From assembly GCA_022340515.1 (NCBI GenBank), contig JAJDNT010000039.1, forward strand, positions 1 to 36,676: 36,676 bases of DNA, read 5' to 3'. The notes under the pieces were generated by a model. It was not told the origin of the DNA. It made no database searches and was given only the letters and a program-made list of their open reading frames with translations. Shown in pieces: positions 76 through 36,142 of this stretch (position 1 is its first letter; the number at the start of each line of letters is the position of its first letter). Origin of the DNA: Deltaproteobacteria bacterium. GTDB lineage: Bacteria > Desulfobacterota > Syntrophobacteria > BM002. A program made the translations under genes and the position numbers.

Positions 76-1605
76 ATGGCTCTCCGATCTCTAATAATTG
101 TCATCCTAGTCGGCTTGTTTCTCTCGTTTACCAGAGCCACCGTTTCTAACACGGCCGCCATGGAGGGTAATACCATGCCGTTGGAAAAAATCCGTGAGTC
201 GGTGATTGCCGGGTCGTGGTATCCGGGAAATGCTTCTCGTTTGCAGCAAGAGATCCAAGATTATCTGAGTCAGGCTTCGGTGGCCGATTTCAAAGGAGAA
301 CTCATTGCACTCATCTCACCCCATGCTGGTTATCGCTATTCTGGACAGGTTGCCGCCTATGCCTACAAGATCCTGGAAACACACAAATGCGACACCGTAG
401 TGGTAATTGCTCCGAGCCATAGGGCCTATTTTAGAGGGGTATCGGTGTATGACCAAGGGGGCTACCGCACGCCACTTGGAGTGGTGCCCCTAGATAAAGA
501 GTTTGTGGCAGAACTCAAGCAACGAGAAAGTCGAATTAGCTATGTTGCCGAGGCCCACAGCCAGGAGCATTCCCTTGAAATCCAGCTTCCCTTTATTCAA
601 GTTGTCATGCCTGAAGGCAAACTTGTCCCTCTTATCATGGGGGATCAGAGTTTTGACACCTGTAAGTGGTTGGCCCAAGCGCTGGCGCACTGCATCAGGG
701 GTAAGTCGGTAGTAGTAGTAGCAAGTTCCGATCTGTCCCATTTCCACCCCTATAACGAGGCAAAGAGACTGGATCAGGTGGTGCTCGACAGGGTAAATGC
801 ATTTGACCCGCAGGGATTGAGCAATGACCTGGCGGGGGGCAAATGTGAGGCCTGCGGCGGCGGTCCTATGATTACTGCCATGTTACTTGCCCGTGAGTTA
901 GGAGCAAATAAAAGCCGCGTTTTGCACTACGCCAACTCTGGTGACGTTACTGGCGATCACAGCGGGGTAGTTGGCTATATGGCCGCTGCCTTATGGGCGA
1001 ATCCAAAGAAAGCTGGAGGGCAGAAGGAAGTGGGTCAACGGCTTGGTGTGGACCTGGGTCTCACCTCAGAGGAGAAAGCGCAACTGCTGCAGATTGCTCG
1101 AGAGGTTGTGGAGGCCCACTGCCGTGGGGATAGATCTCCCAAACTTAAGGTTGAGTCTCACAGCTTGAATGAACCAAGGGGTGCATTTGTGACCCTCCAC
1201 AAGGGTGGAAAACTCAGGGGGTGCATAGGTCACATTCGGGCCCAAAAACCTTTGATTGAGACAATTGTGGAGATGGCAGAAGCAGCTGCTTTCCAAGATC
1301 CCCGTTTCCCTCCTGTAACTTCGCAGGAGTTAAGCCAGTTAGAATATGAAATTTCTGTTCTCACCCCCCTTAGAAGAATCAAAGATGTGGAAGAAATACA
1401 AATTGGTATACACGGGATTTACATGAAAAGAGGTGGTTCAAGCGGGCTGCTACTGCCTCAAGTAGCAACTGAATGGGGTTGGGACCGGACCACCTTTTTG
1501 GAGCACACCTGCACCAAGGCTGGGTTGCCGGAGGACGCCTGGAAGGACAAGAAAACAGAGATTTATATCTTCTCTGCTGATGTATTTTCACCCGGTGATC
1601 TATGA
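76..1605 (+). CDS. AmmeMemoRadiSam system protein B (Memo-like) fused to protein A (AMMECR1-like), with N-terminal signal/TM segment
   Basis: Memo-like N-terminal half (IAGSWYPGN, ISPHAGYRYSGQVAAYAY, SSDLSHFHPY) and AMMECR1 C-terminal half (GAFVTLHKGGKLRGCIGHI, AFQDPRFPPV). N-terminus MALRSLIIVILVGLFLSF is hydrophobic. Confidence 0.9.
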   Translation: MALRSLIIVILVGLFLSFTRATVSNTAAMEGNTMPLEKIRESVIAGSWYPGNASRLQQEIQDYLSQASVADFKGELIALISPHAGYRYSGQVAAYAYKILETHKCDTVVVIAPSHRAYFRGVSVYDQGGYRTPLGVVPLDKEFVAELKQRESRISYVAEAHSQEHSLEIQLPFIQVVMPEGKLVPLIMGDQSFDTCKWLAQALAHCIRGKSVVVVASSDLSHFHPYNEAKRLDQVVLDRVNAFDPQGLSNDLAGGKCEACGGGPMITAMLLARELGANKSRVLHYANSGDVTGDHSGVVGYMAAALWANPKKAGGQKEVGQRLGVDLGLTSEEKAQLLQIAREVVEAHCRGDRSPKLKVESHSLNEPRGAFVTLHKGGKLRGCIGHIRAQKPLIETIVEMAEAAAFQDPRFPPVTSQELSQLEYEISVLTPLRRIKDVEEIQIGIHGIYMKRGGSSGLLLPQVATEWGWDRTTFLEHTCTKAGLPEDAWKDKKTEIYIFSADVFSPGDL

Positions 1606-1754
1606 GCAGAGCTCAGAGGTCGGAGGACAGGCGACAGAAGACAGAAGTCGGAGATCAGAGGGCAGAAATTATTGGATACAGAATAACAAATAACATGTCA
1701 TACCGTTTTCCGTTCACCGTTTACCGCTTACGATATAATCGATTTCAACGGTTT
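1604..1754 (+). repeat. heptamer-register spacer (about 19 units, 1604-1736) ending in two 9-mers (1737-1754)
   Basis: GAGCAGA GCTCAGA GGTCGGA GGACAGG CGACAGA AGACAGA AGTCGGA GATCAGA GGGCAGA ... GAATAAC AAATAAC ATGTCAT ACCGTTT TCCGTTC ACCGTTT ACCGCTT; then AATCGATTT CAACGGTTT. Confidence 0.85.
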
Positions 1755-1761
1755 TGGGCAA

Positions 1762-2913
1762 ATGGAAGAAAACCTTAGCAGGCGAGATTTCCTCAAACAA
1801 TGCAGCCGTTGCGCCCTCCTAAGTTTGACCATGGATTCCCTTTTCTCGATGACCATGGCCTCCCATTCGCAGGCTTTGGACTTGAAGAAAGGTTACCTTG
1901 GCCGCAAGCTTTCCCCTTTTTACACTTCCCTTGAAGGTGGTAGGGTACGCTGTGAGCTTTGCCCCCATCTCTGCGAAGTGGAGGAGGGTGAAAGGGGCTA
2001 TTGTGAAGTACGGGAAAATATTGGTGGTCGTTACTATTCGTTGGTCTACGGTAACCCCTGTGCAGTCCATGTGGATCCCATAGAAAAAAAGCCCTTTTAT
2101 CATGTCCTTCCCACCAGTCGATCTTTCTCTATTGCCACCGTGGGGTGCAATTTCGATTGTAAGTTTTGTCAAAACTGGGAAATCTCACAGGCTCGGCCGG
2201 ACGACACCCACAATTACGACCTGCCACCTGAACAGGTGGTGGAGCTGGCCATACAGTACAAATGCCAATCCATCGCCTCCACCTATGTGGAGCCTACAAT
2301 TTTCACAGAATACATGATCGACATTGGTATTCTAGCTCAAAAGCGGTCCGTCTTGAAGGTTATGCATTCCAACGGATACATTAATTGGGCCCCCCTTCAG
2401 GAACTGGGTAAGTATCTGAACGCGGCCTGCATTGATCTGAAGGGCTTTACTGAGTCCTATTATCGAGATCTTACCGAGGGGTCTCTGCAGCCTGTACTGG
2501 AGACACTTAAAGGCTTAAAAAAGTTGGGTATTCACACTGAAATTGTCAATCTAGTGATTCCGGGGAAAAATGATGATATGGAACAGGTGGCTGCCATGTG
2601 CAGGTGGATCAAGAACGAACTAGGGCCAGACGTGCCACTCCACTTCAGCCGTTTTTATCCCCTTTACAAACTGAAGAGTTTGCCGCCAACCCCGGTATCT
2701 ACCTTAGAGCGGGCTCGAGACAGGGCTCTAAAAGAGGGACTTCATTTTGTCTACATTGGAAATGTACCTGGTCATCCTGGCGAACACACTGAATGTCCCC
2801 GGTGCAAAACCAGGATCATCCAGCGCTGGGGATACAAAGTCCAGGTGCTGCATCTAAAAAACGGCCGCTGTGACCACTGCGGCCAGCCCATACCAGGGAT
2901 TTGGCAACTTTAG
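1762..2913 (+). CDS. amrS: AmmeMemoRadiSam system radical SAM enzyme with twin-arginine signal-like N-terminus
   Basis: CNFDCKFCQNWEISQ (CxxxCxxC), GYCEVRENIGGRYYSLVYGNPCAVHVDPIEKKPFYHVLP; N-terminal SRRDFLK motif; directly downstream of the Memo-AMMECR1 fusion. Confidence 0.9.
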   Translation: MEENLSRRDFLKQCSRCALLSLTMDSLFSMTMASHSQALDLKKGYLGRKLSPFYTSLEGGRVRCELCPHLCEVEEGERGYCEVRENIGGRYYSLVYGNPCAVHVDPIEKKPFYHVLPTSRSFSIATVGCNFDCKFCQNWEISQARPDDTHNYDLPPEQVVELAIQYKCQSIASTYVEPTIFTEYMIDIGILAQKRSVLKVMHSNGYINWAPLQELGKYLNAACIDLKGFTESYYRDLTEGSLQPVLETLKGLKKLGIHTEIVNLVIPGKNDDMEQVAAMCRWIKNELGPDVPLHFSRFYPLYKLKSLPPTPVSTLERARDRALKEGLHFVYIGNVPGHPGEHTECPRCKTRIIQRWGYKVQVLHLKNGRCDHCGQPIPGIWQL

Positions 2914-2935
2914 TAAGCCAGCTAGTATATTCCGG

Positions 2936-3952
2936 CTAATCTACTCCTCGTAAGAATTCGTCGGCCAGGTAAGTGGCAGTGGCCAGGGAATCTGCATTGT
3001 GGACAAGATTCCATAGGGTATGACCGAAGGCATAATTTTGGGAGAAGTAAAAAGTAAATCGCTTGAGCAGAGGGAGAGTGTATTCCGGTTCCATAGAGTT
3101 TTCCAAGATTGCAATAAAACGCTTAAAGGCATCGGCTGGATCTGGATACTTGTTGTCGTAAAGATCTGGCGAGAGCGAACTGGCTATTTGGCTGAAGAGC
3201 CAAGGATTTTTGACCGCGGCGCGGCCAATCATAACTCCGTCGCACCCGGTTAGCTCGAACATTCGCTGAGCAGCTTGGGGGGAATTAACGTCACCGTTTC
3301 CGATGACAGGGATATCTAAAAGTTGTTTGATCTTTGCAATATACTTCCAGCGAGCCGGCCTCTTGAGTCTATCCTGTTTCAGTCGTGGGTGCACACAAAC
3401 AGCATCCACTCCGCTGTCCTGAAGCATAAGACAAAAATCCCGCAGCCCGTTCCAGTTCATTGTCCAACCCAAACGGATCTTAGCGGTGAGCGGCAGGTCA
3501 GTGGCTTTGCGGCTGGCTCTAACTATTGCCTCTGCCCTTTTTGGCTCTTTCATTAGGGCAATGCCGCCTCCTCTTTTGGCGATCAAAGCGCTGGTGCATC
3601 CCATGTTCAAATCAATGCCATCTGCGCCGCAGGACTCGATCTTCTCTATGGCAGCTTCTAGTTCCTCAGCGTGGGATACTAGTAACTGGTAAGCAAGGGG
3701 CCGCTCTTGAGCAGTACCTCGCAGCCAGGGTGACGACTCGGGTGACTCATTGGGAAGAGCCCGGGCGCTGAGCATCTCCGTATAGAAGAGACCGCAACCA
3801 CCGAATTCAGCCACTAATTGACGCAAAACAGTGTGGGTCAGCCCACTCATGGGAGCCAGAATTAGCGGTGGGTCCACTTTGAGATTTTTGATATATAAAG
3901 GCTTTAATTTCATTGCTTCCCTATGATATTTATCGATTATGACTTGGCGCAT
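2936..3952 (-). CDS. dus: tRNA-dihydrouridine synthase (DusB-like)
   Basis: LAPMSGLTHTVLRQL, GADGIDLNMGCTSALIAKRGGGIALMKEP, GNGDVNSPQAAQRMFELTGCDGVMIGRAAVKNPW. The start may be internal (about 3913), because the first ATG lies in an intergenic repeat word. Confidence 0.9.
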   Translation of the reverse strand: MRQVIIDKYHREAMKLKPLYIKNLKVDPPLILAPMSGLTHTVLRQLVAEFGGCGLFYTEMLSARALPNESPESSPWLRGTAQERPLAYQLLVSHAEELEAAIEKIESCGADGIDLNMGCTSALIAKRGGGIALMKEPKRAEAIVRASRKATDLPLTAKIRLGWTMNWNGLRDFCLMLQDSGVDAVCVHPRLKQDRLKRPARWKYIAKIKQLLDIPVIGNGDVNSPQAAQRMFELTGCDGVMIGRAAVKNPWLFSQIASSLSPDLYDNKYPDPADAFKRFIAILENSMEPEYTLPLLKRFTFYFSQNYAFGHTLWNLVHNADSLATATYLADEFLRGVD

Positions 3953-4004
3953 GGCGCTATGCGATGACAGTTTACGCAGTAACTAACGAAGAGTAAAGAG
4001 CGAG

Positions 4005-4838
4005 GTGTATATGTTTTGGCTTGTTTTGCTGCTGTTATTATGGGTAATGGGTGTTGCATTTACCTATGTGCTTTTCTATTACGAATCTGCCAATAGCTCC
4101 CACCTGGAGGTTCTGCGCTCAAAAGGTTCGGTACCTATTATGATTTTAAGGGGTTTCCTCTGGAGTCTATACAGCCATGTGCTCGTCCTCCTGACCACAG
4201 CAACTGCTTTACACCGCGACTACTACAGCTTGCCACCTGGCCCGGCCAAGAGAACTCCTATTATTTTTGTCCACGGGCTTTACCACAATCACACGGCCTG
4301 GTACCTCTATCTTCGCTGGTTTCGCCGCTGGGGTTGGAGCCATATGAAAGCAATTAACCTAAAGGGAAAGTTTCGATCGATACACGAGTTTGCCCGTATT
4401 CTGTCGGAGGAAGTCGAAAAAGTACTAGCTGAAACCCAGAGCGAAAAGGTGGATTTGGTCGGTCAGAGTATGGGCGGACTGGTGATCAGAGCCTATCTGG
4501 CGGAAAACTCTGGCCGGGCCAAGATCCGCAGAGTTGTCACCTTAGGAAGTCCGCACCGAGGCTCAAAACTGGCTGTTTTCGGACTTGGTCAAGGAGCAAG
4601 AGAAATGGTTCCAGGAAGCGCATTTCTGGAATCGCTGAATCAGGATGTCCAAATTCCACAAAATGGTCGTTTTTATGCTATCTACACTATTGTGGACAAT
4701 ATGGTTCTACCCAACGAATCCGCGATCCTTGCTTGGGATGGGGTGAAGAACCTGGAGACTCGAATTGTAAACCACGTAGGCTTAGCATATTGCAAACATA
4801 CGGCACGCTTAGTAAAAGAGTGCCTGGATGAGGAATAG
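4005..4838 (+). CDS. alpha/beta-hydrolase, lipase-like, N-terminal TM anchor
   Basis: PIIFVHGLYHNHTAWYLY, GQSMGG nucleophile elbow (GxSxG), N-terminal hydrophobic helix. Confidence 0.85.
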   Translation: MYMFWLVLLLLLWVMGVAFTYVLFYYESANSSHLEVLRSKGSVPIMILRGFLWSLYSHVLVLLTTATALHRDYYSLPPGPAKRTPIIFVHGLYHNHTAWYLYLRWFRRWGWSHMKAINLKGKFRSIHEFARILSEEVEKVLAETQSEKVDLVGQSMGGLVIRAYLAENSGRAKIRRVVTLGSPHRGSKLAVFGLGQGAREMVPGSAFLESLNQDVQIPQNGRFYAIYTIVDNMVLPNESAILAWDGVKNLETRIVNHVGLAYCKHTARLVKECLDEE

Positions 4839-4848
4839 GGAGCTAGAA

Positions 4849-5019
4849 ATGGATCGATTCCAGTGCGCCCAGTGCAATGAGATTTTCTACTTTGATATGC
4901 AACTAGAGGGTATGGAAGCTAAACCGGATGAGAAAGTGTCTCTTGCCTGCCCTCATTGTGAGCATCAGTGGTCCTACTATAGGCCGGAAGATATTGACAG
5001 AGAGGTTACTCTTCACTGA
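4849..5019 (+). CDS. small zinc-ribbon protein
   Basis: Two CxxC pairs (CAQC, CPHC) in a 56-aa ORF. The longer ORF from 4828 overlaps the lipase stop. Confidence 0.6.
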   Translation: MDRFQCAQCNEIFYFDMQLEGMEAKPDEKVSLACPHCEHQWSYYRPEDIDREVTLH

Positions 5020-5133
5020 CCGTAATAGGATGGACATATAGGCCTTTTGATTGGGGCAGGGTGCACAGTTGAAGGCATAAGGCGGGCCTGCAGAAAATGC
5101 CAACAGAACGGGTACCTGAGCCAACTGGTAACA

Positions 5134-5319
5134 TTAAGCAGCACGAAGACGGGTTGAAAACCAGTGTACTTTCTCTTCTTGGAACCTCACCATTGCTTTT
5201 TGAAAGGCCGCTAATTTTTCACATTCTCTCATGCACAGTTCTCGATCTTCATCCAGCCTGGGGCAGCCGCGGCAGGGACTCTCAACGGTCTTGATGATCA
5301 TTTTATCATTATAGTCCAT
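5134..5319 (-). CDS. small cysteine-containing conserved-type hypothetical protein
   Basis: Cys-rich pattern CRGCPRLDEDRELCMRECEKL. G-rich RBS-like tract sits just upstream of the internal ATG at 5319. The annotated ORF begins at 5340. Confidence 0.5.
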   Translation of the reverse strand: MDYNDKMIIKTVESPCRGCPRLDEDRELCMRECEKLAAFQKAMVRFQEEKVHWFSTRLRAA

Positions 5320-5623
5320 ATCCACCCCCCCCTCACCCAAAATGCGAGCTTGGGGTTCACAATTATTTAATCTTTTTTCATTTTAGCAAACCTATTTTTC
5401 CTGTCAATAAAAACAGGAGACCAAAAACCACCTTGGCGAAAGTTTAAGTATTCAGTATTCAGGTTTTGGCCTTTATGTTTCTTCTTCCCGACATCTGAAA
5501 ATTGACACCTAGAAAATTTCTAGCCGAAATCCAAAATGTGATGTCATGGAGGCTTGTATTGTTCGCCTAGGGCAATTTTGTTATAGTGACCCCGCTCTCA
5601 ATCGTAGTGACTTTGGGAGATTG

Positions 5624-5777
5624 CACCACCAAGGTCACGGAGAACACAAAAGAAATTTGAGATTTTAGATTGCAGATTTACTTATGTGGAAACGAGAAGA
5701 TTTTGGAATCTACCATCCAGCATCTAGAATCTGAAATTAAAGGTCATTGTATCCTTTGTGCTCTTTGTGGTTCAATC
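5624..5777. repeat. heptamer-type spacer with inverted boundary words
   Basis: CACCACC AAGGTCA CGGAGAA CACAAAA; TTTGAGA TTTTAGA TTGCAGA; ATCTACC ATCCAGC ATCTAGA ATCTGAA; closing CTTTGTGCTCTTTGTGGTT. Confidence 0.6.
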
Positions 5778-5811
5778 TTCCCCGCCGATTATTTTGACTG
5801 GAGTCAAAAAT

Positions 5812-7533: not shown

Positions 7534-7794
7534 GCATAGGGCATGGAGCGTGGAGCACAGGGAAATACAGCAGGCAGCTCGCAGAAGTCAGAGATCAGAG
7601 GTCGGAGGACAGACGACAGAGGACAGAAGTCGGAGGCCAAAAGACAGAATTTCGAATTTCGAATTGCGCATTTCGAATTTGGGATGTGAGATGACAAATG
7701 ACAAGTACCGTTCACCGTTTACCATTTACCATTTACGTACTGAACGATTTTAACGGTTTAAACGATTTGAACGGTTTGAACGACCTGAACGATC
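7534..7794 (+). repeat. longest heptamer-register spacer (about 29 units) followed by six 9-mers (7741-7794)
   Basis: GCATAGG GCATGGA GCGTGGA GCACAGG ... GGTCGGA GGACAGA CGACAGA GGACAGA AGTCGGA ... ATTTCGA ATTTCGA ATTGCGC ATTTCGA ... ATGACAA ATGACAA GTACCGT TCACCGT TTACCAT TTACCAT; then TGAACGATT TTAACGGTT TAAACGATT TGAACGGTT TGAACGACC TGAACGATC. Confidence 0.9.
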
Positions 7795-7801
7795 GGTGAA
7801 T

Positions 7802-10693
7802 ATGCAAAGTTTCGTTGAATTTCTGAAAACAGCTCAACTCCCAGGAGCCCGCTTGGTGCATCATGAGTTCATTCCCAGTCGTAGAGCGGTATATGGTGAT
7901 GTCCATCCGCCACTGGCCGCGCCGTTGCGTAGTGCTCTTGCTAAGCTAAACATCACCAAATTGTATAGCCATCAGGCGGAGAGTCTTAGCAGAATTCGCC
8001 AGGGTGAAAATGTGGTGGTGGCCACTCCCACGGCCAGTGGCAAATCGCTAATCTACAATATAGCCCTAGTAGAGTTGCTTAGTCAGGAAGGTGCTGGCCA
8101 CGGACTCTATCTTTTTCCTCTCAAAGCCCTAGCACAGGATCAATACCAGGCCTTTGTCGCGCTCAATCAAGCACTGCCAGACGAACTCCAATTACAAGCT
8201 GCCGTTTATGATGGGGATACGCCTTCGAGTCAACGGCGTAGAATTAAAGAAAAATTACCCCATTTGATCATTTCTAACCCAGATATGCTTCACTTAGGCT
8301 TTTTGCCCTTCCATCAACAGTGGGAGAACTTTTTTCGTAATCTCCGCCTTGTAGTAATCGATGAAGTACACACATATCGGGGCATTTTCGGCTCACATGT
8401 GGTGCAAGTTCTGCGAAGGCTGCAAAGGGTCTGCCAGCTTTATGGATCCCAGCCCAGGTACATCTTGCTCTCTGCTACCATCGAGAACGCCGGAGATTTT
8501 GCTAGTCGGTTGACCGGCATGGAATTCCAGGCAGTGGAGCAGAATGGTGCACCCCAGGCAGGAAGGCACTTCTTTTTCGTCAATCCTGAGATAAGCGCTA
8601 CTACTGTGGCAGCACGCCTTTTCGTCAAAGCACTGAAGAGAAACCTCAAGACCATCGCCTTCACCCAGGCTCGCAAGCTCACCGAAATCATCCACATGAA
8701 CGTGGCTGAAGCCATTCCGGAGCTTGCCTCCAAGGTCAGCTCATATAGGGCTGGCTTTCTCGCTGAAGAGAGGCGAGATATAGAACAGGGCTTGGCTAGC
8801 GGCTCAGTGGCTGGAGTAATTTCTACTAGCGCTTTGGAGATGGGCATTGACATCGGCGGTCTGGACGCCTGCATTTTAGTCGGCTATCCGGGCACTATTA
8901 TCAACACCTGGCAACGTAGTGGCAGGGTTGGGCGAGGGCAGAGTGATTCGCTGGTGATCCTCATAGCGCAGCCAGACGCTCTGGACCAATACTTTATGCG
9001 TCATCCTCAAGACTTTTTCCAACGTTCTTTCGAGGCGGCAGTGGTTGATCCAGATAATCCTGAAGTTCTGGACGCCCATTTACCTTGTGCTGCAGCAGAG
9101 ATTCCCTTGCATAGGAGTGATGATCTCTACACTAATGGCGGTATCTTAGCTTCCCGGGCGCCGGCACTTGAGGAAAGCGGAGCATTGCTGCGAAGCGCCG
9201 AGGGCGATGTTTGGTATGCAGCCAAGCAAAGACCCCACCGGTTGGTGGATATCAGGAGTGTAGGCGAAGGTTATGTCATTCTTGCTGGATCCAATGACAA
9301 AGCGATAGGCAAGAATGACGGAGTGAGGGTCTTCAAGGAGTGCCACCAAGGGGCTATTTACCTCCACAGAGGCCAGCAGCACCTGGTGACCCATTTGGAC
9401 CTAAAACGTAAGAACGTTTTCGTCAAGCCCACCAAGGTTCGCTATTATACCCGCGCCCTCAGTGAGAAAGAAACCGAAATATTAGAGGTGCAACGTAGCC
9501 GACCGGTTGCCAATTTCATTGCTCGTTTGGGTCGTGTCCGAGTTACCGAGCAGGTTGTTGGGTACGAAAAGCGTAATCTATTCAGTGGAGAACTTTTGGA
9601 TAGCATTTCTCTCGACCTGCCTTCGCAGAGTTTTGAAACCATCGGTATCTGGCTAGAAATCGAAGATATTCTTCAGGAGATGGTTCGGGAGCGGCAGCTC
9701 CATTTCATGGGGGGCATCCATGCACTTGAGCATGCCCTGATTAGCATGTTTCCCCTCTTCGCCCTATGCGACCGCAACGACATCGGGGGGATTGCCGTAC
9801 CCCGCCATTTGCAGCTGCAAAAGAGTGCTGTTTTCATTTACGACGGATACCCGGGTGGAGTGGGTTTGGCTGCCAGAGGATTCGACCTCATAGAGAAGCT
9901 CCTACAAAAGACTGTGGAACTTATTGCGGCTTGCCCGTGTGATCTGGGATGTCCTTCCTGCATTCATTCACCAAAATGCGGTGCCGGCAACAAGCCTCTG
10001 GATAAGGCCGCAGCTTTATTTCTCGCCAGGGTTCTCCTTGGCGAGCTTTCCCTTGAACTAAAAGCTGAAGAAACCAGTCAGTTGATTGTGGTCAATGCAG
10101 TCGGGGCAGAAAAAAGCAGAAGTGAACCGAATTTGGCTTTTTTTGATCTTGAAACACAACGGTTGGCTGATGAGGTGGGCGGGTGGGGAAACGTCCACCT
10201 TATGCGTTTGGCGGTGGGGGTACTTTACGATAAAAGTTCCAATGGATTCGAAGTCTTTGCAGAGGAGCAGGTTGAAAATTTGATCGAACGGTTAAGGGGG
10301 TTCGATCTGGTGGTGGGTTTTAATATCAAACGATTCGATTATCGGGTGTTGGCAGCTTACACGAACTTTGATTTCCATGAGTTACCCACCTTCGACATCC
10401 TGGAAGATATTTACCAACGATTGGGGTTTCGTCTGAGCCTGGGCCACCTGGCTGAACAGACTCTTGGCAAAACCAAGACTGCCGACGGTATCCAGGCAGT
10501 TCGCTGGCTCAGAGAAGGAAAACTTGATGCAGTAATCGACTACTGTAGAGATGATGTAACCATTACCAAAGATCTCTTCGACTTCGGTCTCAGCCACGGA
10601 TATTTGCTCTACCTGACAAGAGACGGGCAACCGGTTCGACTACCGGTGAATTGGAAATTGGACAATATTCTCAGGGAAGCAATTCGGAGGTGA
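7802..10693 (+). CDS. DEAD/DEAH helicase with DUF1998-type Cys cluster fused to a C-terminal DEDD 3'-5' exonuclease (MrfA-MrfB/YprA-YprB-like)
   Basis: Walker A TPTASGKS, DEVH box, SALEMGIDIGGLD, QRSGRVGRG; CPCDLGCPSCIHSPKCG; then FFDLETQ, VVGFNIKRFDYRVL and YCRDDVTITKDLF (DEDD-like). Confidence 0.9.
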   Translation: MQSFVEFLKTAQLPGARLVHHEFIPSRRAVYGDVHPPLAAPLRSALAKLNITKLYSHQAESLSRIRQGENVVVATPTASGKSLIYNIALVELLSQEGAGHGLYLFPLKALAQDQYQAFVALNQALPDELQLQAAVYDGDTPSSQRRRIKEKLPHLIISNPDMLHLGFLPFHQQWENFFRNLRLVVIDEVHTYRGIFGSHVVQVLRRLQRVCQLYGSQPRYILLSATIENAGDFASRLTGMEFQAVEQNGAPQAGRHFFFVNPEISATTVAARLFVKALKRNLKTIAFTQARKLTEIIHMNVAEAIPELASKVSSYRAGFLAEERRDIEQGLASGSVAGVISTSALEMGIDIGGLDACILVGYPGTIINTWQRSGRVGRGQSDSLVILIAQPDALDQYFMRHPQDFFQRSFEAAVVDPDNPEVLDAHLPCAAAEIPLHRSDDLYTNGGILASRAPALEESGALLRSAEGDVWYAAKQRPHRLVDIRSVGEGYVILAGSNDKAIGKNDGVRVFKECHQGAIYLHRGQQHLVTHLDLKRKNVFVKPTKVRYYTRALSEKETEILEVQRSRPVANFIARLGRVRVTEQVVGYEKRNLFSGELLDSISLDLPSQSFETIGIWLEIEDILQEMVRERQLHFMGGIHALEHALISMFPLFALCDRNDIGGIAVPRHLQLQKSAVFIYDGYPGGVGLAARGFDLIEKLLQKTVELIAACPCDLGCPSCIHSPKCGAGNKPLDKAAALFLARVLLGELSLELKAEETSQLIVVNAVGAEKSRSEPNLAFFDLETQRLADEVGGWGNVHLMRLAVGVLYDKSSNGFEVFAEEQVENLIERLRGFDLVVGFNIKRFDYRVLAAYTNFDFHELPTFDILEDIYQRLGFRLSLGHLAEQTLGKTKTADGIQAVRWLREGKLDAVIDYCRDDVTITKDLFDFGLSHGYLLYLTRDGQPVRLPVNWKLDNILREAIRR

Positions 10694-10721
10694 GCCTCTC
10701 AAAAAGGAGATCTAAGCACCA

Positions 10722-11330: not shown

Positions 11331-11336
11331 GGTGTA

Positions 11337-11936: not shown

Positions 11937-12104
11937 AGGTCTGGCCCCTAGGTTCACAATGTATAAAGCAAACGTATCTGGTGCTAATAGCAAATATTAT
12001 TGGTAAAATCAATAAGTTGTTCGATCGGCTGATTTTCTTGGGCCAAATCGTCAAACTGCATTAGTCAGGGCCTGACTGCGAGTTTAGGGCAAAGGCTAGT
12101 CTTT

Positions 12105-12350
12105 GCAAGTTGCAAGCCAGCGGGGTCAAAGACCAGCTTGCAGCAGACAGATTGCAGCTGGCAGATAGTCATTTCGTAATTCGGATTGCGCATTTGTCAT
12201 TTATCGTCTTGCACTGGATGGAGCTTGTTCCAGAGGAAATTTCAAATAAGTAATGAGAAATGCTAAATGAACAATGTCAAATTAGAAAGGTGCTTAGTGA
12301 CTAGTGGCAATAGCTGCCCGCTGTTTGCTGCCAGTTGCCTGCTGGTTTTG
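12105..12350. repeat. two heptamer-register blocks (12105-12209 and 12239-12350)
   Basis: GCAAGTT GCAAGCC ... GCAGCTG GCAGATA GTCATTT CGTAATT CGGATTG CGCATTT GTCATTT; ATGAGAA ATGCTAA ATGAACA ATGTCAA ATTAGAA ... GTTTGCT GCCAGTT GCCTGCT. Confidence 0.75.
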
Positions 12351-12357
12351 CATGGGG

Positions 12358-13530: not shown

Positions 13531-13536
13531 CTGCAC

Positions 13537-13571
13537 GTTCCAAGTTCAAGGTTCAATGTTTCAAGTTCTAT
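13537..13571. repeat. short heptamer array
   Basis: GTTCCAA GTTCAAG GTTCAAT GTTTCAA GTTCTAT. Confidence 0.7.
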
Positions 13572-15122: not shown

Positions 15123-15189
15123 ATTGGAGTCAAGATATTAGAGTTCAGCGTTTGCCGCTGCCGCTTCGCTTCAGACGGGTTGCTCGACA

Positions 15190-15242
15190 GGTGTCAGGTT
15201 TTAGATTCTATTTTTTTCTTTTGAGAGCCGAAACCTGACACC
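15190..15242. repeat. perfect 12-bp inverted repeat, arms GGTGTCAGGTTT / AAACCTGACACC
   Basis: Arms 15190-15201 and 15231-15242. The arm word recurs exactly at 34289-34300. Confidence 0.8.
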
Positions 15243-17836: not shown

Positions 17837-18040
17837 GCGCATAGGGCATAGAGGAAGAAAGCTGGCAGCACATTCAGGTCCAAGGTTCCAAGTTCCAAGT
17901 TCCGAGTTAGGATTAGTTATGGGCTGAAGTCCTCTGTATAACGGATAACGGATAACATCTCGTACCGTTCACCGTTTACGACTTCAACGGCATGAAGAAT
18001 TGAACGAATCGACGAATTGACCCGTCGACGATTTGACACT
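17837..18040 (+). repeat. heptamer-register spacer (about 21 units) followed by six 8-mers (17993-18040)
   Basis: GCGCATA GGGCATA ... TCCAAGG TTCCAAG TTCCAAG TTCCGAG ... CGGATAA CGGATAA CATCTCG TACCGTT CACCGTT; then TGAAGAAT TGAACGAA TCGACGAA TTGACCCG TCGACGAT TTGACACT. Confidence 0.85.
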
Positions 18041-18758: not shown

Positions 18759-18828
18759 CAAGCACCAAGCACCAAATTACAAACAAAGCCTGAATTCCGA
18801 TATCCAAAGACCGAAACAGGTTTGGAAT
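18759..18828. repeat. heptamer-register block
   Basis: CAAGCAC CAAGCAC CAAATTA CAAACAA AGCCTGA ATTCCGA TATCCAA AGACCGA. Confidence 0.65.
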
Positions 18829-21740: not shown

Positions 21741-21906
21741 AAATCCGAAATCCGAAGCACTAAATTCTAAACAAATTCAAATTATCAAAATTCGAATTAC
21801 CAAAACTCTTACCGCTTGTTATTATCCTGGAGTCTTTGTTTTGAACATTGAGAAATTTGAATTTCGTATTTGTTTCGGATTTCGAAATTAGATATTCGAA
21901 TTTTTT
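21741..21906. repeat. AT-rich heptamer-type spacer with inverted word classes
   Basis: AAATCCG AAATCCG AAGCACT AAATTCT AAACAAA ... ATTCGAA; later TTTGAAT TTCGTAT TTGTTTC GGATTTC GAAATTA GATATTC. Confidence 0.65.
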
Positions 21907-21955
21907 AAGTCGCAGCCTGGCCAAGATTGCTGGACAAAATGGATAATGGCGGTCA

Positions 21956-22861: not shown

Positions 22862-22926
22862 AAATGCGCTCGCCCTGTTGAATTTCCCGAAAGGAATTCT
22901 ATTCCGCAGGGCGCGCTGGTGCATTT
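22862..22926. repeat. imperfect long inverted repeat upstream of the giant FtsX-type gene
   Basis: AAATGCGCTCGCCCTG (22862-22877) versus CAGGGCGCGCTGGTGCATTT (22907-22926), preceded by CCGCC-TTC-GGCGG hairpin at about 22844-22856. Confidence 0.6.
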
Positions 22927-22977
22927 GCATCTCTGACCATCATCCATAAGCGTGAGTGCTCCCGGACACCAATTAGT

Positions 22978-27846: not shown

Positions 27847-28019
27847 TTTTGAGTAATCGACGTAGGACCGTTTGGCTTACTGGAGGTAACATGCTGCTGA
27901 AAAAAGTCTAAGGCAGGTTTTATTATCCCACATCAAGCGGCCACCTTCTCGTCCTTGATACATGCTTAGTGGTTCCTAGTTTAGCCTACAGGGACCCTCT
28001 CGTCTGTTTGTTGAAGTGA

Positions 28020-30026: not shown

Positions 30027-30029
30027 TTG

Positions 30030-30198
30030 ACGCAAAGCGCATAGAGCATAGCGCATAGCGTGACTGAGCAGTACCAAGAAGTATAGCAACTTATCTATTG
30101 CTTCTAGCAGGACTGTAACTCGTGCCCGATAATTTTACGGTTCTACCCTAAACACTCTCTGCGCTCAGCGCTCTGCGCTCTGCGCTATGCGACGTGAA
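30030..30198. repeat. heptamer arrays at both ends of a spacer, inverted relative to each other
   Basis: ACGCAAA GCGCATA GAGCATA GCGCATA GCGTGAC (30030-30064) and CTCTGCG CTCAGCG CTCTGCG CTCTGCG CTATGCG (30157-30191). Confidence 0.8.
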
Positions 30199-32160
30199 AT
30201 GTACGACGATAAAGAGCTAAAAGAGTATCGAGACCTCTTAAAAGTGCCGGATCATTTTGAGGAAGGTTTCGACTGGAAAACAATTGTTGGCGCCATTTTC
30301 ATCGGTTTCCTCATGATGCCAGGCAGCATGTACCTGCAGCTTGTAATCGGTACTGGCATTGGTCCGGCGGCTCGTTGGGTGACCATAATTCTTTTCGCTG
30401 AACTGGCCAAAAGGTCCTACACCGAACTAAAAGAGCAGGAGATTTTTCTCCTTTATTACATGGCGGGGGCTGCCTTGGCATCACCCTTTCAGGGGCTGCT
30501 GTGGAATCAGTATCTGGTCCAGTCAGATGCGGCCAAAATGTTGGGACTCACCGAATTCATCCCTAAGTGGGTGGCACCAGCCATAGGTTCTGAGTCTCTC
30601 CTCGAACGCACCTTTTTCCATCGCGATTGGATGATCCCCATTTTACTTCTGGTGGGGTCACAGATCATTCAACGTATCGATCATTTTGGTCTAGGCTATG
30701 CTTTGTTCAGGATTACCTCCGATGTGGAAAAGCTCCCCTTCCCCATGGCGCCGGTGGGAGCCTTAGGGACTATGGCCCTAGCCGAATCCACAGAAGATAA
30801 ACAAAAAAGTTGGAAATGGCGTGTTTTCTCCATCGGTGGGGTAATTGGCTTGGCCTTCGGCTCCCTGTATGTGCTTTTGCCTGCTGTTTCAAGCTTGCTG
30901 TTGACGGAACCAATCCGTCTTATTCCTATACCGTGGATTGACTTAACCCGACACACCGAGGATGTATTGCCAGCTGTAGCCACGGGCCTGCAATTAGATC
31001 TGGGACTCATATTTATTGGCATGGTATTACCATTTTGGGCGGTAATGGGCGGACTGGCGGGGTTGATCATCACCGTAGCCGCTAACCCGGTTCTCTACAA
31101 ACATGGGATACTCCACCGTTGGCGCCCAGGTATGGGTACCGTTGATACCGTTTTCGCCAACAATTTCGATTTCTATATGAGTTTCGGTATCGGCCTGGGG
31201 CTCGCCATTGGCCTTATAGGTGTGTGGTATGTGGTGCGCTCTTTTTGGAATGGCGGTGGAGGGCAGCGGGCTAGCTTTAAAGCGCTTTTCAAGCCTCCAC
31301 CCGGAAGGGGTGATTTCAATTTCTGGATCTCCATCGGCATCTATGTTTTATCTACCTTGGCCTATACGGGCCTCTGTGTTTGGTTGGTTCCCAAATTCCC
31401 CTGGATCTTTTTCCTTGGCTATGGCTTCATCTATACTCCGGTTATCTCGTATATTACCGCCCGTATGGAAGGCATTGCCGGACAATTCGTCAGTTTACCC
31501 CTAGTGCGGGAGGCGAGCTTCATTGCAGGAGCAAAATTCTTTGGCTACCAGGGAATCGAAATCTGGTATGCACCGATTCCCATTCACAACTATGGGGAGG
31601 CCACTGTCCAGTTTCGCAAGATAGAACTTACTGGGACGAGCATACGGGGTATCATCAAGGCAGAGATTGTGGTTTTCCCGGTTGTTATGGTGGCAAGCCT
31701 TCTCTTCTCTCAATTTATTTGGCGTTTAGCGCCCATACCCTCCAGTAGCTATCCTTATGCTCAGGAGCTCTGGCATTTACAGGCTTTAAACACCTTGCTG
31801 ATGCAAACTTCGACTTTGGAGGGAAATTCCCTTTTCTTCCAGGCGTTGAAAGCAAGTTACGTTTTGGGTGGTTTGGGCTTTGGCTTAGTAACCTATATCA
31901 TACTGAATGTCTTGGGCTTACCAGTACTGTTGGTGTACGGAGTGGTTCGTGGTTTGGGTCAGTCTACTCCCCATGGCATGATCCTGGAGGTGGTGGGAGC
32001 ATTTCTAGGACGCTTTTTTTTCCTCAAGCGTTACGGAGCAATGTGGCGCCAGTATGCACCTGTTCTGTTGGCGGGATTTTCCTGCGGAATGGGTCTTACT
32101 GGTATGTTCGCCATGGGCGTAACCCTTATTCTCAAATCACTGGGTAAACTTGCTTATTAA
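30199..32160 (+). CDS. polytopic membrane protein, OPT-like peptide transporter type
   Basis: About 650 aa, many TM helices; FDWKTIVGAIFIGFLMMPGSMYLQLVIGTGIGPAARWVTII. The ORF-track ATG at 30187 lies inside a heptamer array, so the next ATG is preferred. Confidence 0.65.
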   Translation: MYDDKELKEYRDLLKVPDHFEEGFDWKTIVGAIFIGFLMMPGSMYLQLVIGTGIGPAARWVTIILFAELAKRSYTELKEQEIFLLYYMAGAALASPFQGLLWNQYLVQSDAAKMLGLTEFIPKWVAPAIGSESLLERTFFHRDWMIPILLLVGSQIIQRIDHFGLGYALFRITSDVEKLPFPMAPVGALGTMALAESTEDKQKSWKWRVFSIGGVIGLAFGSLYVLLPAVSSLLLTEPIRLIPIPWIDLTRHTEDVLPAVATGLQLDLGLIFIGMVLPFWAVMGGLAGLIITVAANPVLYKHGILHRWRPGMGTVDTVFANNFDFYMSFGIGLGLAIGLIGVWYVVRSFWNGGGGQRASFKALFKPPPGRGDFNFWISIGIYVLSTLAYTGLCVWLVPKFPWIFFLGYGFIYTPVISYITARMEGIAGQFVSLPLVREASFIAGAKFFGYQGIEIWYAPIPIHNYGEATVQFRKIELTGTSIRGIIKAEIVVFPVVMVASLLFSQFIWRLAPIPSSSYPYAQELWHLQALNTLLMQTSTLEGNSLFFQALKASYVLGGLGFGLVTYIILNVLGLPVLLVYGVVRGLGQSTPHGMILEVVGAFLGRFFFLKRYGAMWRQYAPVLLAGFSCGMGLTGMFAMGVTLILKSLGKLAY

Positions 32161-32171
32161 AGCAAGTACAT

Positions 32172-32371
32172 GTCGTTCAAATCGTTAAAACCGTTGAAGC
32201 CGTTCAAATCGTAGAAATCGTTGCATTCTTAAATGGTAAACCGTGAACGGTAAATGGTGGAAACCGTACATTCTCAATTCCAGACTTTGGACTTGAATGT
32301 GCTGCCAGCTGCTCCCTGCCAGCTTTCTTCCCCTATGCCCCATGCCCTATGCGCCGAGCGCTCTGCGTTCA
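32172..32371 (-). repeat. reverse-oriented composite spacer: six 9-mers (32172-32225) then about 20 heptamers (32232-32371)
   Basis: GTCGTTCAA ATCGTTAAA ACCGTTGAA GCCGTTCAA ATCGTAGAA ATCGTTGCA; then AATGGTA AACCGTG AACGGTA AATGGTG ... CTGCCAG CTGCTCC CTGCCAG CTTTCTT CCCCTAT GCCCCAT GCCCTAT GCGCCGA GCGCTCT. Confidence 0.88.
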
Positions 32372-32989
32372 CCACGCATGCGGTTGAATCCAGCTAATAA
32401 GAGCTCCCGAAGGCTGGTAACCCTCGAGCCGGCCAAGTTCTTTACCATATTGGAAGAGGACTAAAGTAGGGGTTCCACCCACTCGATATAAAGTGGGGAC
32501 ATGTTGATTCAGATCAACATTGAAGGAGCCAACTTTGAGGCGACCCTGGTAATCTCTAGCTATTTTGTTGATGGTAGGGCTCAGTAACTTGCATGGACCG
32601 CAATTAGGTGAGAAGAAGTTGACTAAAAAAGGCAAGGGTGAACGCAGTACAGTGTCAGTAAAGTTTTGATCTGACAGCAGCAGAGGTGTAGTCTGGGTAG
32701 AAAAGTTGAAGGCAAGGGAAGATTTACACCTCCCACAGATGGGCTGGTCTCCAATTTTATTGAAAGGGATTTTGTTGCTAGTTTGGCATTGTTTGCAGGA
32801 TACGATAAATGTACCACTGCGAAGGGGTGATGACTCGGAAAAGAGTTGTTCTTTGCACTTACCACAGTTAGGACTTTGGCCAAGCCTCACTACTGGCAGC
32901 TTATTTTTTGCGCCGCAATGAGTACATAGAATGTAATAATCTGTGCTGTCCGGCATATTTATGAACCACCCCGAGATCCCGGTAAACAA
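32369..32989 (-). CDS. thioredoxin with two N-terminal zinc ribbons
   Basis: CTHCGAKNKLPVVRLGQSPNCGKC and CKQCQTSNKIPFNKIGDQPICGRC, then FLVNFFSPNCGPCKLLSPTINKIA and GGTPTLVLFQYGKE. Confidence 0.88.
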   Translation of the reverse strand: MFTGISGWFINMPDSTDYYILCTHCGAKNKLPVVRLGQSPNCGKCKEQLFSESSPLRSGTFIVSCKQCQTSNKIPFNKIGDQPICGRCKSSLAFNFSTQTTPLLLSDQNFTDTVLRSPLPFLVNFFSPNCGPCKLLSPTINKIARDYQGRLKVGSFNVDLNQHVPTLYRVGGTPTLVLFQYGKELGRLEGYQPSGALISWIQPHAW

Positions 32990-33018
32990 TAAAAGGTGAA
33001 GGAAAAAGCGATCTTTCG

Positions 33019-33095
33019 CTGTTTGCCTAACTGTTCACTGTTTACCCTTTCCTCTGTTTTTCTCTAGGCGCTCTGCGCTGAGCGCTATGCCATCT
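33019..33095. repeat. heptamer-register block (11 units)
   Basis: CTGTTTG CCTAACT GTTCACT GTTTACC CTTTCCT CTGTTTT TCTCTAG GCGCTCT GCGCTGA GCGCTAT GCCATCT. Confidence 0.75.
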
Positions 33096-33187
33096 TATCT
33101 AGACCAAAGGACCAGGTTTCCGGGATTGTAATCGAACATGATTTACATTAAGAATGAGATTGGTTCTGTCAAGCAGGGAAGGGGAGG

Positions 33188-33234
33188 GGATTGCGGATTT
33201 GGGATTGAGAACTTTAGTCTCAAATCCGCAATCC
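33188..33234. repeat. perfect 14-bp inverted repeat GGATTGCGGATTTG / CAAATCCGCAATCC
   Basis: Arms 33188-33201 and 33221-33234, immediately 3' of the minus-strand gene ending at 33241. No U-tract. Confidence 0.8.
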
Positions 33235-33240
33235 ACAATG

Positions 33241-34017
33241 TTAATCAAGGTCCAAATCGGGCGGTTGGGTCTTGGCGTACTCTTCGTCTTCTTCCGGTTC
33301 AGCCTCAGGCTCATGACCGATGTTCTCTTTGACATCATCGGGCAAAGCACCATAGTTGATGCGGAGATAAGGAGCACCTATACCGGGCGGGCGGTTCTTA
33401 TCGTATTTTACTAACTCTCCAGGTTGTTGTTCGGTGGTGATGATCCTAACTCCCTCACTTCCACCTGCCACACAGACTGAGATCTGGTCATCGGGAAAGC
33501 GGGCCCAGAAGATATTTACTTGAGCTGGTCCCTCTTTAGACCAACCAATGACACGACGCTCCTTGTGATCTTTGCTGAGTATCAGCCAGACTTCATCACT
33601 TTTGTGGATATCGGACAGAAGACGAACCTTTTCCTTTTTCTCCTTTCTGGAAGTATCCACTCCGACGTCGTAGAAAAAGGTGTTGACAATCTTGAGAACA
33701 TCGGGAGGTAGGTCCCGTGGCTCAAGAGAGATGTGACTCACCATCCATCCAGGTGGAAGGTCTTTTTCTTCCGGATTGAAAGGAACAGTTTCCTCCGAGT
33801 TGGCCAGGATGCGAAGTCCCGAGTCGCCGCCGACCACCAGAAGATCGATGAAGCCACTAGCCAATTCAGCCCAAAACACGCTTAGGTCGCAGGGCCCGGA
33901 CTTGGCCCAACCAACCACAATGCGGTGGAGTCGGTCTTCTAAACTTGGAAGAATAAGGTATCTAGTTTTATACGCGTTTGAAACCGGGAAGATAATTTCT
34001 TTCGCCATTGCCCACAA
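33241..34017 (-). CDS. hypothetical protein with two internal repeats and an acidic tail
   Basis: 258 aa; RIVVGWAKSGPCDLSVFWAEL / RRVIGWSKEGPAQVNIFWARF internal duplication. Confidence 0.7.
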   Translation of the reverse strand: MWAMAKEIIFPVSNAYKTRYLILPSLEDRLHRIVVGWAKSGPCDLSVFWAELASGFIDLLVVGGDSGLRILANSEETVPFNPEEKDLPPGWMVSHISLEPRDLPPDVLKIVNTFFYDVGVDTSRKEKKEKVRLLSDIHKSDEVWLILSKDHKERRVIGWSKEGPAQVNIFWARFPDDQISVCVAGGSEGVRIITTEQQPGELVKYDKNRPPGIGAPYLRINYGALPDDVKENIGHEPEAEPEEDEEYAKTQPPDLDLD

Positions 34018-34287
34018 CCCATCGGGTTTGATCAGACCGAAATACTAGCAGAGGTTAGGAATTTTAAGCAACAGGTAAATAGCCGTCTCTCGATTCGTTT
34101 GCAATGCTTGTGCCAGTCACCATAAGGTAAGGCTTAATATAACTTTATTTAGTCTGAGAAAACATGGTCCTTTCCCCGCACAGTGGCATTTTCCATGTGC
34201 CAGGTCAAGTTTCAATGGCTATGCCGGTAAAGATGGCGAGCGCTTTGGGAGTATTTGAGTATGAGAAATTCCGAATCACAATCACTA

Positions 34288-34371
34288 AGGTGTCAGGTTT
34301 CGGGTGTCAGGTGTGAGGAAAATAAACCCAAAGACTAAAAGTTGAAAGCTGAACACTGAAAACTTAAACCC
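34288..34371. repeat. heptamer-register block (12 units)
   Basis: AGGTGTC AGGTTTC GGGTGTC AGGTGTG AGGAAAA TAAACCC AAAGACT AAAAGTT GAAAGCT GAACACT GAAAACT TAAACCC. Confidence 0.8.
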
Positions 34372-34681
34372 GGAAAATTGGTCTTGGAGTTTGGGATTCC
34401 ATTATTTCTCCAGGCCGACATAGCGCAGCATGAGCGAAAAACCTTGGCAGCATTCCCCCGGGGCTGGCCAGGACCCGGCTTGTGTATTTAACTCTTGCTC
34501 TTTGCCGTATTCTGAGGATAAATGTAGGGCGACGCCCAAGGCGGACAATTGATTAATTGACGGTCTGGCGTGACTGTGACCACCAAAGTGCGAGTCTGAA
34601 TAAAATGCTTAATGCTTACTTTCTGGTAGCTTTTATCTGATCTTTGGGGCTACAGCCTCGGCCTAATAGGACACGGGTCCG

Positions 34682-35590
34682 ATGAATGTTGAGAATTTGG
34701 AGTTGTGGAAACGGGTGGCTTGGAACGGAATCAGTATGCGGGTGCCTTCTCAGTGGGAGGTAAGCTCTTTGGCAAAATCTTACCTTCAGCTGGACGACGG
34801 CACGGGCCCCGTACTTGAACTGAAGTGGCAACAGGTGAGAGGTGTTTTTTCCCACCAGGATCATTTGAAAAAGCTGGCTCGCCACTCCAAAGCTGTTCCT
34901 GGACTTAGTTTTCAGCAAACTTCACTGCCTGAGGAGTGGCAACAAGCTCTGCGTCATTTTGAGACTCAATGCTTTGAGTGGCAGGGCGGGGAAATAAATG
35001 GGAAAGGGGTTGTTTTGTATTGCCCGGCAAGTAAGCAGGCCAGCCTACTGCAGTTTTATCAGACCAGGGGTATAGTAGACTCTAAGGTACAACTGGGCGT
35101 GCTGGATTCATTTCGGGACCACTGTGAAGAGGACATGGTAAGATGGTCGTTGTTCGGCCTCAATGCGCTTATGCCTAAATCATTTGACCTAGTACGATAT
35201 CGTTTTGAACCTGGCCACTACCAGCTTGAGTTTCAAGATCGTCGAGATTGCGTTGACCTTAATCGCTGGGGGCCAGCTGATTTGCTTTTGAAAAAAAGTG
35301 ATCTTCGCCACTGGTTCGAAAAGAAGTGCAAGGAATTAAACTGGTGTAGGTCGACATCCATCCAGGAAGATTCTTACCACGGGAATCCGGCTCTTTATGG
35401 AAAACGGCGAGGTTCGGATAGCTACTCAGTGAGGCTTTGGGCAAAAATATCCAGGAAACTACCTAATGTGTGGATTCGCATCTGGCACCTTTATTCTCAG
35501 AACCAGATTATGGCGGTAGGTGCACGTAGCTTGAAATCTTTGGATGAACAGTTGCTCGAGGAAATCTGCAGAAACTATGATATGGCCTAG
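34682..35590 (+). CDS. hypothetical protein
   Basis: 302-aa uninterrupted ORF, stop overlapping the start of the PqqD-like gene. Confidence 0.65.
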   Translation: MNVENLELWKRVAWNGISMRVPSQWEVSSLAKSYLQLDDGTGPVLELKWQQVRGVFSHQDHLKKLARHSKAVPGLSFQQTSLPEEWQQALRHFETQCFEWQGGEINGKGVVLYCPASKQASLLQFYQTRGIVDSKVQLGVLDSFRDHCEEDMVRWSLFGLNALMPKSFDLVRYRFEPGHYQLEFQDRRDCVDLNRWGPADLLLKKSDLRHWFEKKCKELNWCRSTSIQEDSYHGNPALYGKRRGSDSYSVRLWAKISRKLPNVWIRIWHLYSQNQIMAVGARSLKSLDEQLLEEICRNYDMA

Positions 35591-36011
35591 AAGAAAAAAG
35601 CTGCAGAAACGTCACCTCAAAGGAGAACCCTCCACTAGGACTGAGGCTTTTGCCTGTTGTCCAGTGAAAAATAGAGAGGTGCTCGAAGAGGAGGTGGAGG
35701 GGGGTGCAGTGGTGCTAACCTATCCGCTGGTGATACGGCCTTGGCTGGCAGCTGTCGCTGAGAGGCTTGGGCTGAGGTCCAGAGAACCTCTAACCAGAAG
35801 GCTTCAGCTTGATGAGATGGGTAGTCTCACCTGGAGCCTCCTGGACGGTAAACGTACTGTAAAAGATGTTGTGGACTTCCTATGTCGCCGCTATAAGCTA
35901 AACCGTAGAGAGGCCGAAGTTGCAACGACCGGATTTCTTCGTGAACTGGGAAAGCGGGGCCTTGTTGGACTTCGATCACCCCATGAGGACAATAGAGAGA
36001 AATCTACTTGA
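35577..36011 (+). CDS. PqqD-like protein
   Basis: RRLQLDEMGSLTWSLLDGKRTVKDVVDFLCRRYKLNRREAEVATTGFLRELGKRGLVGL matches the PqqD-fold pattern. Start chosen at the internal ATG (track start 35544). Confidence 0.75.
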   Translation: MIWPRRKKLQKRHLKGEPSTRTEAFACCPVKNREVLEEEVEGGAVVLTYPLVIRPWLAAVAERLGLRSREPLTRRLQLDEMGSLTWSLLDGKRTVKDVVDFLCRRYKLNRREAEVATTGFLRELGKRGLVGLRSPHEDNREKST

Positions 36012-36065
36012 CAAGAAGAATTATTTCCCAGCAACATTTTGGATAGGAGTCACGATTATTACTAA

Positions 36066-36142
36066 GCATGGGGCATAGGGCATGGAGCATAGGGAAAATT
36101 CAAAATCTTTCACTCTATGCCCTTTGCTCTATGCTCTTTGCC
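36066..36142. repeat. heptamer-register spacer (11 units), first and last words mutually inverted
   Basis: GCATGGG GCATAGG GCATGGA GCATAGG GAAAATT CAAAATC TTTCACT CTATGCC CTTTGCT CTATGCT CTTTGCC. Confidence 0.85.

Follow-up and report, generated by a model that had tools for sequence, protein, structure and literature searches.

Why are the intergenic spacers of a bacterial contig written in 7-bp words that share several letters with their neighbours and are rarely identical to them? The question is raised by contig JAJDNT010000039.1 (assembly GCA_022340515.1, Deltaproteobacteria bacterium), which belongs to a draft genome of 3.83 Mb and whose 36,676 nucleotides form the window analyzed here. 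We found that blocks of four to five degenerate heptads (about 28-35 bp, with a sharp upper limit), drawn from about 20 word families, make up the spacers in the manner of a mosaic. An earlier note, made from the letters of the window, had cut 14 spacer stretches into heptads and proposed a self-match analysis at different lags as the check. In each of these stretches, the self-match at lag 7 was 0.48-0.77, with most other lags giving 0.1-0.4; exceptions are lags divisible by 7 and, where words are A-rich or alternating, some near-lags. Because the 14 stretches had been hand-picked, whole spacers were used as the fair test. Across the window, lag-7 self-match was 0.357 in spacers compared with 0.246 in genes, lags 14 and 21 were raised as well, and 13 of the 18 whole spacers exceeded dinucleotide shuffles with z > 3 (maximum z = 10.3). 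The cutting into heptads is thus confirmed, with an excess over both shuffles and genes that extends well beyond one or two spacers. Strong lag-7 runs, defined as rolling windows with at least 20/35 matches, were intergenic in 20 of 20 cases, with spacers making up 14% of the window. The number of positions passing this threshold was 540 at lag 7, 125 at lag 9 and 0-22 at lags 5, 6, 8, 10, 11, 13 and 17. Tandem Repeats Finder (TRF) detects the arrays in fragments only, because the heptad copies are degenerate. Arrays beyond those listed before lie at 5433-5489, 5633-5750, 15181-15227, 21841-21914 and 34604-34646.

The same register is found outside the window. Within 306 kb of the same genome, 159 intergenic arrays were counted at lag 7, compared with 8 at lag 8, 18 at lag 9, 3 at lag 10 and none at lags 4, 5, 6, 11, 12 and 13, in agreement with the proposal of a non-coding register common to many loci. 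At a laxer threshold, heptad arrays occupy about 18% of the spacer DNA in these 306 kb, an upper estimate since some of the sampled contigs had been picked for carrying family F1 (GCATRGR). F1 is the commonest word, with 755 three-unit matches in the 3.83-Mb genome and none for the reversed word. The excess extends to the sister genome G007, where self-match in a contiguous 400 kb was 0.305 at lag 7 versus about 0.27. Masked N runs inflated one set of lag counts for G002, G006, G007 and G012 and were excluded in later analyses. Period-9 arrays adjoin heptad arrays at 7741-7793 and 32174-32222 (TGAACGATT and CGTTCAAAC; TRF), and lag-9 and lag-8 segments are also over-represented in spacers of this genome and of sister genomes. 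An Rfam scan of the window matched no family and a tRNA scan of the window found none.

Architecture and distribution of the heptad blocks

The vocabulary of the spacers is restricted. Among 935 three-word blocks, 88% fall into the top 20 clusters, compared with 55-57% for shuffled words, so the open-ended drift of words suggested earlier gives way to a recurring set. The main families are F1 (GCATRGR), F2 (RATTKCG), F3 (AGRRGTC), F4 (AGCAGGC), F5 (GCACTAG), F6 (GGTAAAC), F7 (YCAGRAN) and H (TCAGGTK). Within an array, F1 units match at about 5.5 of 7 positions, which bears out that neighbouring words are rarely identical. Block length is likewise confined: lag-7 run lengths show a shoulder at 32-40 bp and a sharp fall after about 41 bp with no long tail, and fitting simulated arrays placed most long arrays at 28-35 bp. 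Chains of F1 comprise four units in 72 cases, five in 21 and six in 4, and the counts of each family peak at or end after four to five units.

Blocks are joined in phase. Gaps between blocks of two families are fixed modulo 7 (F1/F2 on the minus strand, 10/12 at +4; F1/F3, 6/6; F1/F9, 6/8), and self-match at block junctions was 0.346 at lag 7 versus 0.23-0.29 at other lags. The earlier claim that a change of word class leaves the register intact is therefore right. Further, the blocks have one polarity, with 37 plus-minus and 0 minus-plus inverted pairs of the same family, and all 9 of 9 H-family pairs arranged head-to-head. Most F1 blocks are unpaired within their spacer (74 single versus 12 head-to-head pairs), and 62 of the 74 single blocks point inward. 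By spacer type, inward orientation of F1 was seen in 54/58 co-directional, 21/26 convergent and 12/20 divergent cases. In the 25 bp that follow stop codons there are 3 blocks per kb, compared with 0.45 per kb in the 25 bp that precede starts. A composite of about 78 bp in which F1 blocks form a hairpin (window 36066-36142) has 49 matches in its own genome at E<=1e-3, several of which cover most of the element at 76-91% identity between unrelated flanks.

The relatives compared are Desulfobacterota ("Deltaproteobacteria") metagenome-assembled genomes, including the complete chromosomes CP070689, CP070843, CP070735 and CP070692. F1 is present at high load in 10/10 genomes of the genus, with few copies in other genera of the family and none in almost all other genomes of the class. 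Confinement to one genus holds for this high F1 load within the class and is wrong for the repeat class as such, F7 and F2 occurring in many other families. F7 was found in 74 of 247 Desulfobacterota genomes from 49 genera, in a patchy manner, and in other families it is accompanied by F1 and F2. Direct sampling of two unrelated families revealed 4-5-unit blocks of the same kind, and in one of the two, 3/3 neighbouring same-family pairs are in plus-minus order. Other Desulfobacterota families also carry heptad words outside F1-F10 (TTACTGG/TTACTCG and ATTTAAG) in blocks of similar size, as at L182:7510-7636 (G136) and L192:5180-5255 (G223).

The words extend to another phylum. Four Nostocaceae plasmids carry F7 (5, 2, 10 and 2 matches) and F2 (7, 1, 6 and 4 matches), degenerate positions included. 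No F7 or F2 words were found in three other cyanobacterial and four gammaproteobacterial plasmids, and reversed words gave none. Three families (F2, F3 and F7) outnumber their permuted words in the Trichormus plasmid, from which nine other families are absent. F2 pairs in the Nostoc plasmids are minus-plus, so the polarity is not universal. These plasmid results rest on pattern searches controlled with reversed words; when mosaic spacers were compared with the plasmids by BLAST, no match was obtained, probably owing to the low-complexity filter or to shortness.

Origin of the blocks

Local stutter predicts that units of one array resemble each other more than they resemble units elsewhere. For F1, similarity was 5.51 of 7 positions within the same array versus 5.48-5.50 at other loci, and for F2 5.46 versus 5.34. 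In case of F5, neighbouring units match at 5.22 positions and the same slot at other loci at 5.72, so that the slot is more alike than the neighbour. Sites within whole blocks are linked more strongly than after permutation of columns (F1, z=4-9; F7, up to 8.7; H, 5), the pattern that copying of entire blocks would leave. Among 29 family occurrences in the 18 spacers, 10 are common to the nearest species and 4 to G007, which indicates fast turnover. The F1 block at 30030-30060 persists, letter-identical in three species and exactly one 7-bp unit shorter in a fourth (L004).

We tentatively favour the reading that the spacer blocks are dispersed non-autonomous intergenic repeats, copied from locus to locus under positional constraint, and give it not quite an even chance. 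Beyond the observed dispersal pattern, vocabulary, block length, polarity, phase, position and turnover, we infer a copying process and a recognising factor. Blocks of four to five degenerate heptads from about 20 recurring families, joined in heptad register and often set in inverted pairs of one fixed polarity, would be copied between loci, singly or as composites, by transposition, template switching or gene conversion. Copies would land mostly in the tolerant region just 3' of stop codons, local 7-bp slippage would merely adjust unit number, and sequence-specific recognition, whether part of the copying machinery or due to a binding factor, may fix some letters of each word and leave others free. 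Several observations weigh against this reading. F3 units are more alike within an array than elsewhere (4.82 versus 4.40-4.45), H likewise shows a small excess, and four-unit blocks of F2 and F4 have little or no linkage in some sets. Pure expansions occur as well, such as 12 x GAGCATA in L019. Inspection of about 20 F1 copies by eye showed neither a target-site duplication nor an insertion boundary that was consistent, and no strain pair offered a clean empty site. Counts of Y1/RAYT transposases do not follow load: the heavily loaded G008 has 0, whereas G010 and G011, which are nearly empty, have 8-10. No copying enzyme was identified. Further, related species were treated as independent in the statistics, and a degenerate binding site under strong selection could produce much of the same pattern.

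This last point leads to the main rival, a selected binding platform, in which an oligomeric or repeat DNA- or RNA-binding factor reads four to five sites at 7-base spacing and selection recreates such sites de novo. It would account for the position-specific constraint in F1 words, whose positions 1, 2, 3 and 6 are 90-100% fixed in five species whereas positions 5 and 7 vary, for a block length held at four to five units, and for placement after stops with avoidance of starts. The identity of one F1 quartet in three species, where the neighbouring protein is about 79-82% identical, also fits. We nevertheless consider the platform rather unlikely, as two thirds of family occurrences are not retained at orthologous spacers of the nearest species and the site linkage of whole blocks points to copying. 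Moreover, the same architecture is found in many unrelated words, so that one sequence-specific factor would not serve. Slippage or duplication of 7 bp at each locus, followed by rapid point divergence, was the explanation first offered in the earlier note, and the periodicity at lags 7, 14 and 21 would follow from it. The precise unit loss in L004 and some pure expansions show that unit slippage occurs, yet it is not what spreads the words. With array units mostly no more alike than units elsewhere, linked blocks, fast spacer turnover, limited run lengths, and a vocabulary common to loci, species and phyla whose variable positions are the same everywhere, local slippage is strongly contradicted as the main source and, in our estimate, highly improbable.

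Remnants of one ordinary family of miniature inverted-repeat transposable elements (MITEs) or of repetitive extragenic palindromes (REP/REPIN), moved by a RAYT/IS200-like transposase, might explain the dispersed F1 hairpin composites and the REP-like extragenic placement. The many word families and the one-armed blocks do not fit such an origin, no target-site duplication was seen by eye around the F1 copies inspected, and RAYT/Y1 transposases were rejected as drivers since their counts are not associated with heptad load. REPs are not known to be built of tandem heptads. We regard this origin as the least probable of those considered. A structural cause, with heptads as a by-product of selected G-quadruplexes or of long RNA or DNA hairpins, is improbable as well. 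Four units equal the number of G-tracts required, an argument made for GGGNATC repeats (PMC4692102), and inverted pairs can form hairpins. However, a G3 quadruplex motif occurs in 0.5% of 182 arrays, which led us to reject G-quadruplexes as the general cause; a weak G2 motif occurs in 29%, compared with 14% after shuffling. The arms of F1 hairpins showed the reverse of compensatory pairing, identity at variable positions being 0.497 versus 0.588 with partners swapped, and the predominance of unpaired F1 blocks also speaks against hairpins. An excess of intergenic heptamers in bacteria has been noted for years without agreement on its cause, slippage and G-quadruplexes being the standing explanations. 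The hundreds of arrays in the present genus contradict both as a general cause.

Array map of the window

The arrays of the window are listed in the table. The stretch 30157-30198 overlaps the called start codon at 30187, this ATG lying within the last CTATGCG heptad. The in-frame ATG at 30199 is the likelier start, and the array is therefore probably located wholly within the leader. The gene at 30187-32160 encodes a protein of 657 aa for which Pfam, NCBIfam and PDB sequence searches gave no match. Counterparts in the genus and its family are 90-96% identical to it and those of more distant Desulfobacterota 81-84%, and the gene adjoins a DUF6785/DUF6784 gene at every locus covering both. A 258-aa protein (33241-34017), likewise with no Pfam/NCBIfam match, is 85-95% identical across sister genomes. 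Further, one gene at 76-1605 fuses Memo-like and AMMECR1 domains, and 7796-10693 encodes an HRQ1/MrfA-type helicase with a C-terminal RNase H-like domain.

Table. Heptad arrays of the window, with word families and supporting observations
Positions	Strand	Array	Observations
1604-1667	+	F3 array (RGNCRGA/AGRRGTC words), about 9 units	Spacer 1606-1761 lag-7 z=8.3; gap-free alignment to G002 spacer with substitutions
1701-1731	-	F6 array (TTACCGT on +; GGTAAAC family on -)	TRF period 7, 4.4 copies; family common to G002 spacer
7534-7561	+	F1 quartet GCATAGG GCATGGA GCGTGGA GCACAGG, directly 3' of adenine deaminase stop codon	F1 also in G002 ortholog spacer
7566-7645	+	F4-like words, then F3 array (AGAGGTC/AGAAGTC)	TRF periods 7/14/28; lag-7 array 7568-7736 score 65.8
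7646-7680	+	F2 array (AATTTCG/AATTGCG)	TRF period 7, 4.9 copies; exact F2 match 7648-7668
7684-7736	+	F8-like words (ATGACAA) grading into TTACCRT words (F6 on -)	TRF 7706-7736 period 7
12105-12350	.	Mosaic of GCAGATT/GCAGCTG, CATTTCG/ATTCGGA, ATGNNAA and GCTGCCN (F4 on -) words	Spacer 11994-12357 z=6.2
13537-13571	+	F11 words (GTTCAAN), 5 units	Lag-7 0.68, lag-21 0.79
17837-17983	.	Partial F1, F11 (TTCCAAG), GGATAAC and TTACCGT words	Spacer z=6.1; TRF rows
18759-18828	.	CAAGCAC and related words	Lag-7 0.48
21741-21914	.	AAATCCG words (F2 on -) and ATTTCG-type words (F2 on +)	Lag-7 segments; absent from G002 ortholog
30030-30060	+	F1 quartet CGCAAAG CGCATAG AGCATAG CGCATAG, left arm of inverted pair	Identical in L006 and L009; one 7-bp unit fewer in L004
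30157-30193	-	F1 block (CTCTGCG words), right arm of inverted pair	4-species alignment: GCG positions invariant, changes at other word positions
32232-32262	+	F6 quartet AATGGTA AACCGTG AACGGTA AATGGTG	Family common to G002
32302-32356	-	F4-type (CTGCCAG), then F1 (CCTATGCCCCATGCCCTATGC)	Exact F1 match 32333-32352; F1 part retained in G002
33019-33095	-	GTTTACC-type words and F1 variant (GCGCTCT GCGCTGA GCGCTAT)	Spacer z=5.6; related words at G002 ortholog
34288-34371	.	Family H inverted pair: AGGTGTC AGGTTTC GGGTGTC AGGTGTG, then GAAAGCT GAACACT GAAAACT	Lag-7 0.61
36066-36142	.	F1 hairpin composite: F1 x4, 20-base spacer with CAAAATCTTTCAC, F1 x4 on minus strand	Dispersed copies in own genome

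Relation to described heptamer repeats

Heptanucleotide repeats have been described in Calothrix, Nostoc and Xanthomonas. The heptameric GGGNATC and GGGGA(C/T)T repeats of Xanthomonas and Nostoc are intergenic, prefer four units and include inverted pairs; they lie on the sense strand near stop codons and on the antisense strand upstream of starts, and 83% are retained between two Xanthomonas species (Rehm 2015; PMC4692102). Direct repeats of TAACTGA, with a patchy occurrence in Beggiatoaceae, Cyanobacteria and Bacteroidetes, vary by indels in 7-nt steps and are accompanied by mixed heptamers in Microcystis; TAACTGA is one exact word, which in the main genome is found chiefly immediately 5' of start codons (MacGregor 2015; PMC4679880). 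The class, which the earlier note did not recognise, is therefore not wholly unrecognised, and degenerate versions of it occur in the Nostoc plasmids examined. New here are the density, the mosaic phase, the polarity, the 4-5-unit limit in the absence of G-quadruplex motifs, and the fact that distant lineages, Nostocaceae among them, have these degenerate words in common.

It is conceivable, though doubtful, that these repeats represent a widespread undescribed class of bacterial intergenic elements, defined by architecture (four to five degenerate heptads, one-way inverted pairing and in-phase mosaics) rather than by sequence, patchy across phyla with the same degenerate words, and kept by dedicated copying or binding machinery. 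If the shared architecture does have one machinery, this would be more than a variant of described heptamer repeats. Testable questions are raised: what copies or binds a four-heptad block, why it spans 28-35 bp, why only a single polarity occurs, and how identical degenerate words come to be present both in Nostoc and in a Desulfobacterota genus.

Overall, the present repeats work like described heptameric simple sequence repeats and TAACTGA repeats but lack their near-identity and G-tracts. Like REP, BIME and REPIN elements, they are dispersed, extragenic and inverted, with many copies and a composite arrangement; their arms, however, are tandem heptads, and their load is not associated with Y1/RAYT transposase numbers. 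With the GGGNATC-type repeats they share heptamers, an intergenic location (sense strand near stops, antisense strand upstream of starts), inverted pairs and the preference for four units, whereas almost all blocks are without G3 tracts and 10/29 occurrences are retained here, compared with the higher retention in Xanthomonas (PMC4692102). As with TAACTGA, a heptamer repeat is distributed patchily across phyla, but instead of that exact word near starts other words dominate in the present genus, many of them degenerate, located mostly after stops and depleted near starts (PMC4679880). The closest likeness in words is to the short tandemly repeated repetitive (STRR) sequences of Calothrix and heterocystous cyanobacteria, which are also intergenic tandem heptads of several word types; Trichormus and Nostoc plasmids hold 4-5-unit arrays of the same F7 (CAGAATT/CAGGAGT) and F2 (AATTGCG) words. 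In contrast to the near-identical copies of STRR repeats, the arrays of the present genus are more degenerate (mean purity 0.69 versus 0.79 in Trichormus; 1% of arrays exceed 0.9) and much denser, and they form long mosaics that stay in phase and have a one-way polarity that is reversed in the F2 pairs of Nostoc.

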